Positions 4,489-36,488 of a stretch of DNA of 64,000 nucleotides are shown piece by piece (position 1 is the first letter of the stretch; every line of letters starts with the position of its first letter). The stretch is from Antiquaquibacter metalliresistens (GTDB taxonomy: Bacteria; Actinomycetota; Actinomycetes; Actinomycetales; Microbacteriaceae), in assembly GCF_029211225.1 (NCBI RefSeq), contig NZ_JARGEM010000002.1, positions 248,001 to 312,000 of the forward strand, in the 5' to 3' direction. Made by a program: the position numbers and the translations under genes. The notes below the pieces were generated by a model. The model was not told the origin of the DNA, ran no database searches, and saw only the letters and a program-made list of their open reading frames with translations.

Positions 4489-5524
4489 CCCCGAACAGCA
4501 GCCCGAGCAGGTAGGTGGCCGCGGCGGCGCCGTAGCCGATCGCCAGCTGGCGCAGCGCGCGCCCGAGCGGCGAGGTGCCGGAGAGCAGCCCGACGACGGT
4601 GCCGGTGGCCAGCAGTGCGACACCGACGAGCACGGCGGCGATCGCGGCCGCCGTGAAGCCCTCGGCACCGAAGATGTAGGGCAGCACGGGGATGATCGCG
4701 CCGGACGCGAAGAACAGGAAGCTCGAGAGCGCGGCGCCGATGGCGGTGCCCACGGACTCGTGCTGCGCACCCTCACGCCTGGGCATCAGCTCGATGCCGG
4801 CGATGATGAGGTCCGCGTGGGCCTTCGCGTCGTCCGGGGACATGCCGCGGGCGCGGTAGACCAGGGCGAGTTCGTTCGCGTCGACGTCGAGGTGGGGCAG
4901 GGCATCCGCACCGTTGTCGTTCGGCGTGGTGGCGTCGAGCAGCTCGCGCTGCGACTGCACCGAGACGAACTCGCCGGCACCCATCGAGAGCGCCCCAGCG
5001 AGCAGACCGGCGATGCCCGCCAGCAGCACCACGTGGTTCGGCATGCCCGCGGCGGCGAAGCCGAGCACGAGCGCGAGGTTGGAGACGAGCCCGTCGTTGG
5101 CGCCGAACACGGCCGCGCGGAACGTGCCGGAGAGCCGCTGCCGACCGCGCGCGGCGAGGGCGCGCACGACCTCCTCGTGGATGCGCTCGTCCGCGGCCAT
5201 CTGCGTCGTGGCATCCGCGTCGCGGTCATAGGGCGAACGGGACTCGGCCCGCTGCGCGAGCGCGAGCACGAACACCGAACCGAACCGCCGGGCGAAGAAG
5301 CCGAGGAACGCGGTGCGCAGGTCCCGCTTGGGCTCGCCGGCCTGGTCGCCGAGCAGGTCGAGCCAGTGCTGTTCGTGCCGGCGCTCGGCATCGGCCAGGG
5401 CGAGCAGGATCTCCTGCTCCTCCCCCGTGCGGCGCGAGGCGAGGTCGCGGTAGATGGCGGCCTCCGCGCGCTCGGCGGCGAGGTAGCGGCGCCAACGGCG
5501 GATCTGGGCGTTGGTGGGCGTCAT
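4475..5524 (-). CDS. Ferritin-like/VIT1 fusion, predicted iron or manganese transporter
   Basis: 349 residues. The N-terminal ~150 residues form a rubrerythrin/ferritin-like helical bundle with metal-ligand patterns (Glu21; E47-R-R-H50; a later DERIHEE). The C-terminal half is a VIT1/CCC1 transporter with five hydrophobic helices; SMGAGEFVSVQSQ is the family's conserved first-helix and cytosolic metal-site segment. Such erythrin-VIT1 proteins export or sequester Fe2+/Mn2+ at the membrane. The ATG at 5524 was chosen over 5533 because GAAGG lies at proper spacing only for 5524. A predicted structured RNA precedes the gene, suggesting metal-responsive control. Confidence 0.9.
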   Translation of the reverse strand: MTPTNAQIRRWRRYLAAERAEAAIYRDLASRRTGEEQEILLALADAERRHEQHWLDLLGDQAGEPKRDLRTAFLGFFARRFGSVFVLALAQRAESRSPYDRDADATTQMAADERIHEEVVRALAARGRQRLSGTFRAAVFGANDGLVSNLALVLGFAAAGMPNHVVLLAGIAGLLAGALSMGAGEFVSVQSQRELLDATTPNDNGADALPHLDVDANELALVYRARGMSPDDAKAHADLIIAGIELMPRREGAQHESVGTAIGAALSSFLFFASGAIIPVLPYIFGAEGFTAAAIAAVLVGVALLATGTVVGLLSGTSPLGRALRQLAIGYGAAAATYLLGLLFGVTTG

Positions 5525-12710: not shown

Positions 12711-12737
12711 GACATTCCTTCCACGGTGAGCGAGAGT

Positions 12738-12820
12738 CGTGGCCCAGGCGTACGGCCACCAACCGTGAATTGGGTCGCTCCCCGATGGGATCCCATCTGA
12801 ACGCCAGTCGCGACGAAGCC
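12738..12820 (-). ncRNA. ZTP (pfl motif) riboswitch controlling glyA-folD
   Basis: Read on the minus strand, the element shows the hallmarks of the class. GTCGCGACTGGCG is the 5' domain, a short GATGGGATCCCATC hairpin follows, and GGGGAGCGACCC (12783-12772) closes the first domain. After a variable linker comes GGCCGTACGCCTGGGCC (12757-12741), the 3' domain that contacts the first in a pseudoknot. ZTP/ZMP accumulates when 10-formyl-THF is short, and these riboswitches switch on one-carbon genes. It ends about 28 nt before the glyA ATG, so either translational or transcriptional readout is possible. Confidence 0.9.
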
Positions 12821-12826
12821 ATTCTA
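12821..12826 (-). promoter_or_regulatory. -10 box of the glyA promoter
   Basis: TAGAAT on the minus strand, immediately 5' of the riboswitch. The predicted start point falls at its first base-paired stem. The region 17-18 bp upstream (CTGGAT) is a poor -35. Confidence 0.6.
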
Positions 12827-32357: not shown

Positions 32358-33491
32358 TCAGGAGACCCCGAGCTGGGCGGAGAGCACCATCGCGGCGGCG
32401 CCGCGCATCACGATGTCTTCGCCGAGCGTCGTCATCCGCAGCGTCAGACGGCCATGGAACTCGGCCATCGTGCGGTTGCGGAGGGTTTCGCCGGTCGCCC
32501 TGATGAGCGGACCGTCGAGCAGGTGCGTCGGTCCGCTCAACACGACCTCGGCGAGGTTGAGCGCTCCGACGATGGGGGCCAACGCGATGCCGAGTCGCTG
32601 GCCGGCCTCGGTCAGCACGGCGTCGCGGTCGCCGTGCGCGATGGCGCGCTCCAGCCGCGGCGTCGCCAGCCACGTCTCCAGGCAGCCGTGCTTGCCGCAC
32701 ACGCAGGCGGGGCCACCATCGGTGCCGACGACGACGTGCCCGATCTCACCGGCGGCGAAGCGGCTGCCGAACAGGGGCGTACCGTCGAGCAGCAGTCCGG
32801 CACCGACACCGTGGCCGACCTTGACGAGCATCATGTCGCTGTCGGCGTCGCCGAAGCTGTGCTCGGCGAGCGCGGCGACGTTCGCGTCGTTCGCGACGAC
32901 CACCGGCAACGCGAAGCGGGCCGCGAGCTCGTCTTGCAGTCGTTCGCCGGACCAGCCGAGGTTCGGGGCGGAGAGCACGACGCCGGCGAGGTCGACCACG
33001 CCGGGTGATCCCACGCCGATGCCGAGCACCGGGAGGGTGGCGGCGGCCACGAGCTGCTCGGTGAGGCGGATGACGAGGGCGGTGGCATCCGGCCCCGTGC
33101 GCGCCTCGAGGGGCAGTTCGGCGCGCGCGAGGATGTGACCGTCGAGGTCGAGCACGGCGCCGCGGAAGGTGGCGTACTCGCTCAGGTCGATGCCGATGAT
33201 CTGGAACGCGGAGCGGTTGAGGTCGAGCAGCGTGGCCGGCTTGCCGGGGCGTGCGTCCTCGCGCTGACCGGTCTCGACGACGAGGCCCTCGCCGATGAGC
33301 TCGGCGACGAGGTCCGAGACGGTCACCCGGGTGAGGCCGGTCTCGCGGGCGATGTCGGCGCGGCTGAGTCCGGCGCGCTCGGCGCGGTAGAGGGTCTGCA
33401 GCACGAGCGATCGGTTGTGCCCGCGCGCGTGCTCGGGGAGCACCTTGCGTGTCGGCCTGAGCACCCGTCCGGATGCGAACCCCGTCGTCAT
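32358..33491 (-). CDS. ROK-family transcriptional repressor (NagC/XylR type)
   Basis: 377 residues. An N-terminal winged helix (NRSLVLQTLYRAERAGLSRADIARETGLTRVTVSDLVAELI) precedes a ROK sugar-binding domain with IGIDLSEYATFRGAVLD, ANDANVAALAE and the zinc motif GHVVVGTDGGPACVCGKHGCLE. It should repress the downstream SBP-permease-kinase-nagB operon and itself, with GlcNAc or GlcNAc-6-P as inducer. A palindromic operator abuts its start codon. Confidence 0.9.
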   Translation of the reverse strand: MTTGFASGRVLRPTRKVLPEHARGHNRSLVLQTLYRAERAGLSRADIARETGLTRVTVSDLVAELIGEGLVVETGQREDARPGKPATLLDLNRSAFQIIGIDLSEYATFRGAVLDLDGHILARAELPLEARTGPDATALVIRLTEQLVAAATLPVLGIGVGSPGVVDLAGVVLSAPNLGWSGERLQDELAARFALPVVVANDANVAALAEHSFGDADSDMMLVKVGHGVGAGLLLDGTPLFGSRFAAGEIGHVVVGTDGGPACVCGKHGCLETWLATPRLERAIAHGDRDAVLTEAGQRLGIALAPIVGALNLAEVVLSGPTHLLDGPLIRATGETLRNRTMAEFHGRLTLRMTTLGEDIVMRGAAAMVLSAQLGVS

Positions 33492-33518
33492 GTTTGTTAG
33501 TACACCTTACGAACAAAC
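33492..33518. promoter_or_regulatory. ROK operator palindrome at the repressor start codon
   Basis: GTTTGTTAGTA (33492-33502) and TACGAACAAAC (33508-33518) form an inverted repeat with one mismatch and 5-bp spacer. TTTGTNAG-N-CTNACAAA-like sites are typical of NagC/ROK repressors. It touches the ATG at 33491, implying autorepression and a leaderless or very short leader. Confidence 0.65.
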
Positions 33519-33680: not shown

Positions 33681-34133
33681 ATGCGCTCACTGACCACCAG
33701 CAAGCCCGCCTTCGCCCTGCTCACCGGCCTCACCCTCACCGGTGCGCTCGCCGGTTGCGCGGCATCGACGCAGCCCGCCACCGAGGGGACCCCGCAAACC
33801 GACCAGAGCACCACGCCCGCCGACACCGGCGCGGGCACCTATGCCGACGGCACCTACACCGAGAGCGCGAACTACCAGTCCCCCAACGGCACCGAGACCA
33901 TCGATGTCACCATCACCCTGGCGGACGACGTGATCACCGACGTGCAGGTGGTCGGGCACGGCGAGAGCCCGGACTCCAAGCACTACCAGGGCGAGTTCAT
34001 CGGCGGCATCGACGCGATCGTCGTCGGCAAGGACATCGACTCGATCAGCGTGAGCAAGGTCGCCGGCTCCTCGCTGACCAGCGGCGGGTTCAACAAGGCC
34101 GTCGAGGCGATCAAGCTTGACGCTGCCGCATAG
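33681..34133 (+). CDS. FMN-binding-domain lipoprotein, predicted flavinylated electron carrier
   Basis: 150 residues from the ATG at 33681, with an ACGGAGAGA site upstream. Lipobox LAGC (Cys26), a Thr/Pro-rich linker, then an FMN_bind domain (GTYTESANYQSPNGTETIDV). Near the C-terminus GSSLTSGGFNKAVEAI matches the flavinylation motif region; Thr133 in SSLT is the probable phosphoester-FMN site. The gene overlaps apbE by 17 bp; ApbE is the enzyme that would attach the FMN. It is an extracytoplasmic one- or two-electron shuttle by family knowledge. Confidence 0.85.
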   Translation: MRSLTTSKPAFALLTGLTLTGALAGCAASTQPATEGTPQTDQSTTPADTGAGTYADGTYTESANYQSPNGTETIDVTITLADDVITDVQVVGHGESPDSKHYQGEFIGGIDAIVVGKDIDSISVSKVAGSSLTSGGFNKAVEAIKLDAAA

Positions 34134-34983
34134 CTGGCGGTTCGAGGCGATCGGCACCGGGTGGCAGATCGACGCCCCGCAGCCACTCGGCGGGGTGCTC
34201 GAGGCCGCGATCCTCGACCGCATCGCCGGGTTCGACCGCACCTACTCCCGGTTCCGCGATGACTCCCTCGTCGCGCGCATCACGACCACCCCCGGTCGAC
34301 ACGTCTTCCCGGATGACGCCGCCGCCCTCTTCGACGTGTACCGCGCGCTCTACGAGGCCACCGATGGTGCAATGAGCCCGCTGGTCGGTGCCGCCCTCGA
34401 CCGACTCGGCTACGACCGGGCGTACTCGTTGCGCTCCACCGGACCGGCGATCCCCGCACCGGACTGGGATGCGGCGGTGGCCTGGGACGGCACCGCGCTG
34501 ACCACGCTGCGACCGGTCTCGGTCGACGTCGGCGCGGCCGGCAAGGGATACCTCGTCGACATCGTCGCCGCGATGCTCGTCGCCTCCGGCGTCGAGGAGT
34601 TCATCGTGGACGCCAGCGGCGACATCGCGCATCGCGGCGCCGAGCCCATCCGGGTCGGGCTCGAGCACCCGCTCGACACGACCAAGGCGATCGGGGTGGT
34701 GTCGATCGGGAACGGTGCGATCTGCGCCTCGGCATCGAACCGACGGGTCTGGGGCGACGGGCTGCACCACGTGCTTGATGCGACCACGGGGCTGCCGACG
34801 CGCGGGATCATCGCCACCTGGGCGATGGCGGAGACCGCCCTCGCCGCCGACGCGCTCGCGACCGCGCTGTTCTTCGCCGACCCGGCACGCCTCGCGAAGC
34901 GGTTCGAGTTCTCATACGTGCGGATGCACGCGACGGGCCGGGTAGAGTCTTCGCCACACCTTGACGGGGAGTTGTTCACATGA
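34117..34983 (+). CDS. apbE: FAD:protein FMN transferase
   Basis: 288 residues from a TTG at 34117 inside the 3' end of the preceding gene; no better start is visible. ApbE transfers FMN from FAD to a Thr/Ser of target proteins. Landmarks are FEAIGTGWQID at the N-terminus, SVDVGAAGKGYLVD with the magnesium/FAD-binding region, IVDASGDIAHRG, HHVLDATTGLPT and the ETALAADALATALF C-terminal metal motif. There is no signal peptide, which is unusual for an enzyme modifying an exported lipoprotein and may mean cytosolic modification or a misjudged start. It overlaps the next gene by 4 bp (ATGA). Confidence 0.92.
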   Translation: MTLPHSWRFEAIGTGWQIDAPQPLGGVLEAAILDRIAGFDRTYSRFRDDSLVARITTTPGRHVFPDDAAALFDVYRALYEATDGAMSPLVGAALDRLGYDRAYSLRSTGPAIPAPDWDAAVAWDGTALTTLRPVSVDVGAAGKGYLVDIVAAMLVASGVEEFIVDASGDIAHRGAEPIRVGLEHPLDTTKAIGVVSIGNGAICASASNRRVWGDGLHHVLDATTGLPTRGIIATWAMAETALAADALATALFFADPARLAKRFEFSYVRMHATGRVESSPHLDGELFT

Positions 34984-36488
34984 AGCGATGGCTGGACCGC
35001 ACCACCGGCGCCGTGCCGATGTACAAGCTCGTCGTGATGTCGCTGGTGCTCATCGAGCTCGCCGCGATCGTCTTCGCCGCGCTCGGTCTCGTGCCGCGCG
35101 ACCCGCTCGCCATCGCGGTGTCCTCGGTCGTCGCGGTGGCGGCGAGCCTGGCCGGCACCTGGGCGGCCTCGCTCGTCGCGCGCGTGAAGCTGCATCTCGA
35201 GTCATCCATCATCACCGGCCTGCTCGTCTTCTTCGTGTTGGAGCCGAAGCTCGAGCTCGTGGCGCTCGCCGGTGTCGCGCTCGCCGCGGCCCTCGCCGGT
35301 GTCTCGAAGTTCCTCGTCGCGGTGCGGGGGCGCCACGTGTTCAACCCGGCGGCGCTCGGCGCGTTCGTGGTCGGACTCGTCGGGTTGAGCTACCCCGCGT
35401 GGTGGGCCGGCACCCCGGCACTGCTGCCGTTCGTCGCCGTCACCGGGTTCCTGGTGCTCTACCGCACCCAGCGCCTGGGCGTCGGGCTGTTCTTCCTCGC
35501 ACTCACCAGCGTCGTCTTCGGGCTGCGCATCGCCATCGCCGGCGGCACCGTAGGGGACTGGCTCGGGCTCGCCCTGCTCTCCTCGCCCGCGGTGTTCCTG
35601 GCGGTGTTCATGCTGAGCGAGCCGCTCACGCTGCCTCCGCGGCGCTGGCAGCAGCTCGTCGTCGCGACCGTCGTCGCGCTGCTGTTCACCATCCCCTTCA
35701 ACATCGGGCCGCTCTACTCCAGCCCGCTGCTCGCGCTGCTGGTGGGCAACCTCCTCGCGTTCTTCTTCGGTCAGCGCCGCGCCATCCGCATGACCTACCT
35801 CGGCAAGACGCAGCTGTCGCCCACGACCTGGGAGCTGTCGTTCCAGCCGTCGCGGGCCGTGCGCTTCGTGCCCGGGCAGTACATGGAGCTCACCATCCCG
35901 CACCGCCGGGCCGACTTCCGCGGCAGCCGACGCTACTTCAGCATCTCCTCGGCCCCGAGCGCGACCGCACCCATCACCTTCGCGATCACGGTGCCGAGCA
36001 AGTCGTCGAGCTTCAAGCAGGCGCTGCTCGACCTCGAGCCCGGCGCGATCGTGCACGGCACCGGCGTCGGCGGCGACTTCGCGCTGCCCGTCAAGGTGTC
36101 CGAACCGCTGCTGCTCGTGGCGGGCGGCATTGGCATCACGCCGTTCGCCTCGCAGCTCGCGCACGCGACCGAACGCGGTGAGCACCGGAATGTCGTGGTC
36201 GTCTACGCGACGAGCGCCGCGGGCGAGCCACCGTACGCGTCCCTGCTCGAGCAGTCCGGGGCGCGGGTCGTGCTCTACTCCCCCGAGCCTCCCGACCCGC
36301 TGCCGACCGGCTGGACCTACGGCGGTGCGGGCCGGGTGACGGGCGAGCGGCTCGCGGCGGACGTGCCGGATGCCGCCGGGCGTCGCACCTTCATCTCCGG
36401 CCCGCCGGCGCTCGTCTCGGAGCTCCGCCACGCCCTGCGCGGCCAGGGCGCCCGCCGCGTGCACACGGACGCGTTCTCCGGCTACTGA
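34980..36488 (+). CDS. NqrB/RnfD-like membrane domain fused to ferredoxin-NAD(P) reductase-type flavoprotein
   Basis: 502 residues. Residues ~1-270 hold about eight to ten helices with RGRHVFNPAALGAFVVG, resembling the NqrB/RnfD family. Residues ~275-502 are an FNR-type module: RFVPGQYMELTIPH, RRYFSISSAP (~316-325) for FAD, and VAGGIGITPFASQL (~380) for NAD(P)H, ending RVHTDAFSGY. The fused protein could take electrons from NAD(P)H and pass them across the membrane to the flavinylated lipoprotein made by the first two genes. The canonical NqrB flavinylation SGAT is not seen. It is translationally coupled to apbE. Confidence 0.88.
   Translation: MKRWLDRTTGAVPMYKLVVMSLVLIELAAIVFAALGLVPRDPLAIAVSSVVAVAASLAGTWAASLVARVKLHLESSIITGLLVFFVLEPKLELVALAGVALAAALAGVSKFLVAVRGRHVFNPAALGAFVVGLVGLSYPAWWAGTPALLPFVAVTGFLVLYRTQRLGVGLFFLALTSVVFGLRIAIAGGTVGDWLGLALLSSPAVFLAVFMLSEPLTLPPRRWQQLVVATVVALLFTIPFNIGPLYSSPLLALLVGNLLAFFFGQRRAIRMTYLGKTQLSPTTWELSFQPSRAVRFVPGQYMELTIPHRRADFRGSRRYFSISSAPSATAPITFAITVPSKSSSFKQALLDLEPGAIVHGTGVGGDFALPVKVSEPLLLVAGGIGITPFASQLAHATERGEHRNVVVVYATSAAGEPPYASLLEQSGARVVLYSPEPPDPLPTGWTYGGAGRVTGERLAADVPDAAGRRTFISGPPALVSELRHALRGQGARRVHTDAFSGY

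Follow-up and report, generated by a model that had tools for sequence, protein, structure and literature searches.

A putative three-gene flavin electron-transfer module of Actinomycetes with a probable serine acceptor and a distinct ApbE

A compact, predicted flavin electron-transfer module

In a 64,000-nucleotide stretch of the genome of Antiquaquibacter metalliresistens (contig NZ_JARGEM010000002.1, positions 248,001 to 312,000; hereafter the window, to which positions refer unless another locus or contig is named), we analysed three overlapping genes that encode a lipoprotein of the FMN_bind family, an ApbE flavin transferase, and an RnfD/NqrB-like membrane domain fused to an FNR-type reductase. 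The module belongs to the NQR/RNF-like type of flavinylation system, as described in the passages of the papers cited below, and is not new in kind; it is very likely the actinomycete form of that system, in which electrons from NAD(P)H would be exported to an external flavin lipoprotein. What looks new, judged from sequence comparison, is that a serine acceptor motif is paired with a distinct ApbE in an actinomycete lineage. This paired change is the more unusual feature of the module and was overlooked by a preliminary description of the locus.

All three genes lie on the + strand. The lipoprotein gene (33681..34133, 150 amino acids) begins with ATG downstream of GGAGAG, and its product carries, by a simple pattern, the lipobox LAGC and matches Pfam FMN_bind (NqrC/RnfG-like; E = 3.7e-6). 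Its end overlaps by 17 bases (34117..34133) the beginning of the ApbE gene (34117..34983, 288 amino acids, TTG start), which matches Pfam ApbE (E = 1.1e-39; both matches are above the cut-off) and shows no signal peptide. The stop of the ApbE gene and the ATG start of the fusion gene (34980..36488, 502 amino acids) overlap in the four bases ATGA (34980..34983); the membrane domain spans approximately residues 1-265 of the fusion protein, and the FNR/NqrF-like domain for flavin adenine dinucleotide (FAD) and NAD(P)H residues 266-502. These coordinates and domain matches confirm the overlapping three-gene arrangement given in the preliminary description.

The flavin acceptor of the lipoprotein

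The codons of the motif GSSLTS, residues 129-134 of the lipoprotein, occupy positions 34065..34082 (+) and were located by alignment to SaFMN3-D2 and CbFMN4-D1, in the crystal structures of which flavin mononucleotide (FMN) is attached to a threonine (PMC10339131). A profile alignment of the lipoprotein family matched 8p2a (E = 9.3e-17) and 8p2b (E = 1.6e-4); Ser131 falls on the FMN-bearing threonine of both, and Thr133 on a ring contact. The FMN attachment residue is therefore probably Ser131, and not Thr133 as the preliminary description had it; the latter probably touches the flavin ring. Compared with [S/T]GA[S/T], the window motif AGSSLT retains the acceptor hydroxyl as Ser and has Ser in place of A.

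It is unlikely, in our assessment, that the FMN sits on Thr133 because the attachment point slid by two residues as the motif changed. Such a shift would agree with the retention of Thr133 in the 61 actinomycete copies of the first motif alignment and with its place at the same helix start (predicted helix 131-149). The conservation of Thr133 would, however, be explained by a ring contact, given that in CbFMN4-D1 Ser69, two residues past the FMN-bearing Thr67, hydrogen-bonds the flavin ring (PMC10339131), and all 72 rows of the first motif alignment with a residue at position 131, on which the attachment residue falls, have Ser or Thr there.

In the lipoprotein model, the predicted local distance difference test score (pLDDT) by block is 79-95 over residues 51-150. 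A Foldseek search with the model gave no match at E ≤ 0.001; the top match (8p2b, E = 0.005) and several more are structures of the FMN_bind family, and SufU and lipoate ligases are interspersed among them. A simple measure of hydropathy shows a strong hydrophobic stretch in 130 of 136 lipoprotein rows. Twin-arginine export was considered and rejected: a crude RR pattern precedes the lipobox in 12 of 73 rows, and the window protein is not among them.

To describe the distribution of the motif, we distinguish an actinomycete type, to which we assign loci of the class that the window belongs to, records named as Arthrobacter or Pseudarthrobacter, and L034 (a metagenome-assembled genome, MAG, of Actinomycetota with a fusion 64% identical to that of the window), from a second type found in Chloroflexi, Patescibacteria and other MAGs. 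L177 and L178, which share only the phylum with the window and of which L178 has an ApbE that groups with the second type, were counted as second type. Across three sets of loci, GSSLT occurs in 140 of 141 actinomycete-type copies (61/61, 74 and 5/6), and the acceptor position is Ser in 141/141. In the second set, 76 copies were found, of which 74 have GSSLT and the other two are L177 (TGATNTS) and L178 (SGATNTS). The sole actinomycete-type copy without GSSLT, in L257, reads IAGASGCA and keeps Ser at the acceptor position. Among second-type copies, the acceptor is Thr in 11/13 and Ser in 2/13; the Ktedonobacterales copy L052 reads TGATDSS. One L055 fragment was left out of the first motif alignment, and no FMN_bind was found in L017, L181, L182, L183, L255, L256, L259, L282, L295 and L299.

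As a control, we collected FMN_bind genes outside the module from 150 genomes of the same bacterial family. The acceptor is Thr in 65 of these 66 genes (31/31 for the host and the 30 best-scoring loci, which are a biased choice, and 34/35 among the remaining matches), and GSSLT occurs in none; three control loci had no readable FMN_bind match. A Ferric_reduct neighbour was present in all 11 of the 66 genes that were tested, and the remaining control genes are presumably MsrQ-like as well.

Some individual loci differ from these patterns. In L257 (5772-7334; genome G268, 87% complete), an actinomycete-type ApbE adjoins the FMN_bind lipoprotein and no fusion gene lies in the 14 kb examined; this may be a decaying or repurposed pair. 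The only Ser acceptor among the 66 control genes, AGASLS, is that of L292 (487-1083). Other FMN_bind proteins have SGGT in place of SGAT (L294, L297, L298) or Arg before AT (L266, L286, L293), and these forms are further natural variants of the ApbE motif.

A distinct ApbE clade

In the ApbE of the window, ICASA replaces the ATSG motif, and Ser205, His218, Asp245 and Thr249 are retained. Judging from motif order, Ser205, His218 and Asp245 would correspond to Ser241, His257 and Asp285 of VcApbE, whose catalytic Ser, His, Asp triad is named in PMC12052999. TSG at positions 204-206 was found in none of 134 actinomycete-type ApbE rows, compared to 27/27 ApbEs beside other FMN_bind genes and 10/10 of the second type; Ser205, His218 and Asp245 are present in 134/134 actinomycete-type rows. 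Six further ApbE rows, including that of L257, are also without TSG.

In a tree of 66 rows, which includes 28 of the 134 actinomycete-type rows, excludes rows shorter than 200 residues, and comes with a long-branch warning on an outside row (L001), a branch of length 1.97 (support 100/99) separates the actinomycete type from all other rows, and second-type ApbEs group with MsrQ-like ApbEs (support 97/91). Likewise, the best-hit scores of second-type ApbEs have a median of 154.5 bits to MsrQ-like ApbEs and 54.9 to the actinomycete type. Second-type fusions are 29-36% identical to that of the window and clearly related to it. Because the fusions of the two types are related but their ApbEs are not close, the actinomycete ApbE gene would either have been replaced or have diverged very fast.

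The absence of a signal peptide from ApbE, which the preliminary description had pointed out, stands, but it is shared by ApbEs outside this operon. In the open frame, no hydrophobic stretch precedes the domain, and, by the same hydropathy measure as above, such a stretch occurs in 2 of the 126 scorable rows among 132 ApbE rows. ApbEs beside other FMN_bind genes of the family (26/27) and second-type ApbEs (10/11, the exception being L058; L177 is a fragment) are leaderless too, so that leaderless ApbE appears to be general here.

The membrane-FNR fusion protein

Scanned alone, the fusion protein matched NQR2_RnfD_RnfE (E = 0.004) and NAD_binding_1 (E = 7e-4), both under the Pfam cut-off, and no ferredoxin domain was found in the Pfam scan. 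NQR2_RnfD_RnfE was matched at E ≤ 0.1 by 23 of the 30 members of the fusion's alignment (best 1.9e-11), and a profile of the membrane domain matched RnfD at E = 4.3e-6. In a structure predicted from an alignment of 30 sequences (mean pLDDT 85.9), residues 10-266 align with Azotobacter vinelandii RnfD (8ahx_D; Z 23.4, root-mean-square deviation 2.9, 240 residues, 20% identity), and those from about 263 to 501 with reductases of the FNR type, NqrF among them (7qu5: Z 23.8, 231 residues). The predicted fold bears out the relationship of the membrane domain to NqrB/RnfD that the preliminary description had proposed.

A reading of residues 1-265 found no [ST]GA[ST], in agreement with the earlier remark that the membrane part is without SGAT, and the 17 aligned membrane domains share no invariant threonine, T13 and T217 being nearly invariant. 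In a genome of the same class, a stop codon interrupts the fusion frame (L180, 4644-6551).

Occurrence and gene linkage

Fusion matches at E ≤ 1e-10 were found in 127 of 299 genomes of the same bacterial family; nine of these match through the FNR domain only and were removed, which leaves 118/299. In a phylum sample of 396 genomes, six carry the actinomycete type and two the second type. In the other 14 phylum genomes with a match listed at E ≤ 1e-6, that match is weak (E of 1e-17 or above); three of them were inspected, and neither FMN_bind nor ApbE lies beside the match there.

All three genes matched together in 69 of 71 loci. Given this, and the presence of the fusion in 118/299 family genomes, the association of the genes goes beyond chance. 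L113 and L059 have no adjacent ApbE, ApbE comes first in L056, and FMN_bind lies 2.3 kb away in L086. In L086 and L179, the genes that separate FMN_bind from ApbE were considered as partners and rejected after their translations were read: one, on the opposite strand, is aldehyde dehydrogenase-like, and the rest are unrelated. The actinomycete-type ApbE clade is present in 118/118 sampled family genomes with the fusion, and G268 has the clade without the fusion (121 genomes with ApbE matches, minus two weak ones at E 8e-22 and 9e-21, leaving 119). Among the 396 phylum genomes, the same six carry both the fusion and the ApbE clade, and the next ApbE match is at 4.7e-25. As far as these genome searches reach, the actinomycete ApbE clade is tied to the module, with the counts reflecting shared ancestry and not independent repeats. 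In genus g17 (L113, L255, L256, L258-L261), there are extra fusion copies, and in some genomes ApbE and the fusion are unlinked.

Proposed electron path and flavinylation

In the proposed path, NAD(P)H would reduce FAD in the cytosolic FNR domain, electrons would traverse the membrane via a non-covalent flavin in the RnfD-like domain and then reach the FMN covalently bound to the external lipoprotein, and this FMN would pass them to an extracytosolic acceptor. The single-path route of the preliminary description would fit the module and is in substance the same as that proposed by Meheust 2021 and Huang 2024, as given in the passages of these papers. ApbE would attach the FMN, most likely to Ser131; given that no signal peptide is seen in it, the cytosol is the most likely site of this reaction, which would then precede export. 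ApbE is reported to put FMN on the last residue of D-x-x-[ST]-G-A-[ST], to modify Ser besides Thr, and to need a minimum motif of seven residues (PMC12052999); because seven residues would suffice, flavinylation of the unfolded chain before export would be possible. We tentatively suggest, as something that falls short of an even chance, that in actinomycetes a dedicated, single-substrate ApbE clade recognises GSSLT and flavinylates Ser in the cytosol on the unfolded chain, and that the flavin-bearing lipoprotein precursor is then exported by Sec.

Several points weigh against the main interpretation, that of an actinomycete NQR/RNF-like system with FMN on Ser131. The motif does not match D-x-x-[ST]-G-A-[ST], with the A being Ser in 140/141 copies and the Asp unconserved, and since it departs from that pattern in this way, flavinylation is not guaranteed; in addition, ApbE is reported to prefer Thr (PMC12052999). 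Two second-type loci, L050 and L058, have a Ser acceptor, and the second-type ApbE rows, those of these two loci included, all have TSG; because Ser is paired with TSG there, a Ser acceptor alone does not demand a changed ApbE. The paired change of motif and ApbE was probably one evolutionary event, and is then a correlation without independent repeats. Support for the interpretation is computational (gene content and order, predicted folds, genome searches and the motif-ApbE pairing), the fusion structure is a single-chain prediction without a flavin in the membrane domain, and the export by Sec of a chain that bears its flavin beforehand is a supposition. Flavin occupancy, topology, the direction of electron flow, flavinylation before export, and the acceptor are what we infer from this support.

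Along the same lines, the lipoprotein could be unflavinylated throughout the actinomycete lineage, the motif having decayed and the flavin being bound non-covalently or not at all. The broken Asp and Ala positions of the seven-residue motif and the loss of TSG from ApbE speak for such decay, which we consider improbable, since the near-universal retention of GSSLT indicates selection and since the actinomycete-type ApbE keeps Ser205, His218 and Asp245 in every row and accompanies the fusion in all sampled family genomes that have it. Covalent attachment to Ser131 is the reading that we prefer.

Search for the terminal acceptor

The preliminary description had proposed that a comparison of gene neighbourhoods might reveal an associated external reductase, but no acceptor emerged among the named families that recur near the operon. 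These families, named from the window's own neighbours, include isocitrate dehydrogenase, at 19 loci, and a ROK regulator, at 10; their recurrence most plausibly reflects inherited gene order. Besides the named families, many further frames recur, mostly in closely related Arthrobacter-type loci.

The module might be an assimilatory iron reductase that partners a VIT1-type iron transporter, a role to which we assign a rather low probability. Six published NQR/RNF-like clusters include VIT1 (PMC8238504), VIT1 is present somewhere in all 41 genomes compared, and the transporter need not lie near the operon. Within 10 kb of the operon, however, VIT1 was found in 0/41 genomes (the nearest being at 11.2 kb; FTR1 and P19 were not searched), as opposed to 5 of the 13 other FMN_bind genes in genomes of this set, the host's MsrQ-like one included, that have VIT1 within 5 kb. 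Because of this difference, the comparison weakly suggests that the MsrQ-like system serves iron and the NQR/RNF-like module something else. In the window, a VIT1-family stretch (PF01988) lies at 4502-5122 on the - strand, ~28 kb from the operon, and several relatives have a VIT1 gene some 11-50 kb from the operon, which is probably shared gene order.

Host genome and other features of the window

The host genome (3.07 Mb, 34 contigs, 97.7% complete) contains no PF02508 (Rnf-Nqr) protein at E ≤ 1, and the fusion gene is its sole PF03116 match, with no second RnfD-type protein; for these two Nqr/Rnf membrane families, the genome thus agrees with the preliminary description of a module without the other Nqr/Rnf subunits. 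The genome has two FMN_bind matches, the lipoprotein of the module and one in an MsrQ-like cluster at a contig end (C2). The latter (motif SGATYT) adjoins a protein with Ferric_reduct and NAD_binding_1, with VIT1 ~2 kb off. An ApbE piece opens another host contig (C34). A third, leaderless ApbE-like protein (L117, 9041-10003; C12, about 123.0-124.0 kb) has Glu and Lys aligned with Asp245 and Thr249 and a neighbouring frame with NAD_binding_1 and 2Fe-2S domains; this protein is possibly not an ordinary flavin transferase.

A promoter scan found no sigma-70-like site, which is uninformative in such GC-rich DNA. An imperfect palindrome (TTTGTTAG...CGAACAAA, 33493-33517) immediately precedes the divergent gene for the ROK regulator (32358-33491) and is possibly an operator between this gene and the flavin operon. 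A ZMP/ZTP riboswitch (12735-12821, - strand) scores above the gathering threshold and is the window's only Rfam match at that threshold.

Comparison with known systems

A compact three-gene version, movable to E. coli, would allow a test of transmembrane electron transfer by flavins only, with neither haem nor iron-sulphur centres involved. The serine motif, nearly fixed, and its matching transferase form a natural pair with which target recognition by ApbE could be probed, and they might provide an additional, separate tool for flavin tagging. Since ApbE is leaderless, one may also ask in which compartment of these Gram-positive systems flavinylation takes place. Literature searches found no biochemical study of a minimal NqrB/RnfD-based system.

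The module shares with Na+-NQR and RNF the RnfD/NqrB fold, the NqrF-like reductase and the NqrC/RnfG-like flavoprotein, but differs from them in having no PF02508, no second PF03116 in the genome, and a membrane domain that lacks a motif for covalent flavin. With the MsrQ-like flavinylation system as described in PMC8238504, which occurs in the same bacterial family and in the host genome, it shares an FMN_bind protein, a leaderless ApbE, and a membrane protein with an FNR domain. The MsrQ-like system has instead Ferric_reduct PF01794 (11/11 tested), nearly always a Thr acceptor, an ApbE with TSG (27/27), and VIT1 within 5 kb of 5/13 FMN_bind genes.

The closest counterpart is the NQR/RNF-like system. 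Meheust 2021 (PMC8238504) reported 127 such clusters, mainly from Actinobacteria and the candidate phyla radiation, in which an NqrB/RnfD-like domain is fused to an NAD-binding domain, and proposed a one-way path from NAD(P)H to external FMN. Huang 2024 (PMC11334425), whose structural model is of a Ktedonobacter member, described a membrane domain without the flavin threonine, the non-covalent flavin site of which may be sampled by the external flavin. Neither the GSSLT motif nor the actinomycete ApbE clade is mentioned in the passages of PMC8238504, PMC11334425, PMC12052999, PMC10722498, PMC8065229 and PMC10339131 that we consulted, the motif itself not having been a search term and supplementary files and figures being outside the scope. 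Taken together, the module and the published system have in common an external FMN_bind subunit, the fusion of RnfD/NqrB to an NAD-binding domain, ApbE, and a membrane domain without the flavin threonine, whereas the actinomycete branch differs in having GSSLT instead of an SGAT-like motif and an ApbE of another clade without TSG.

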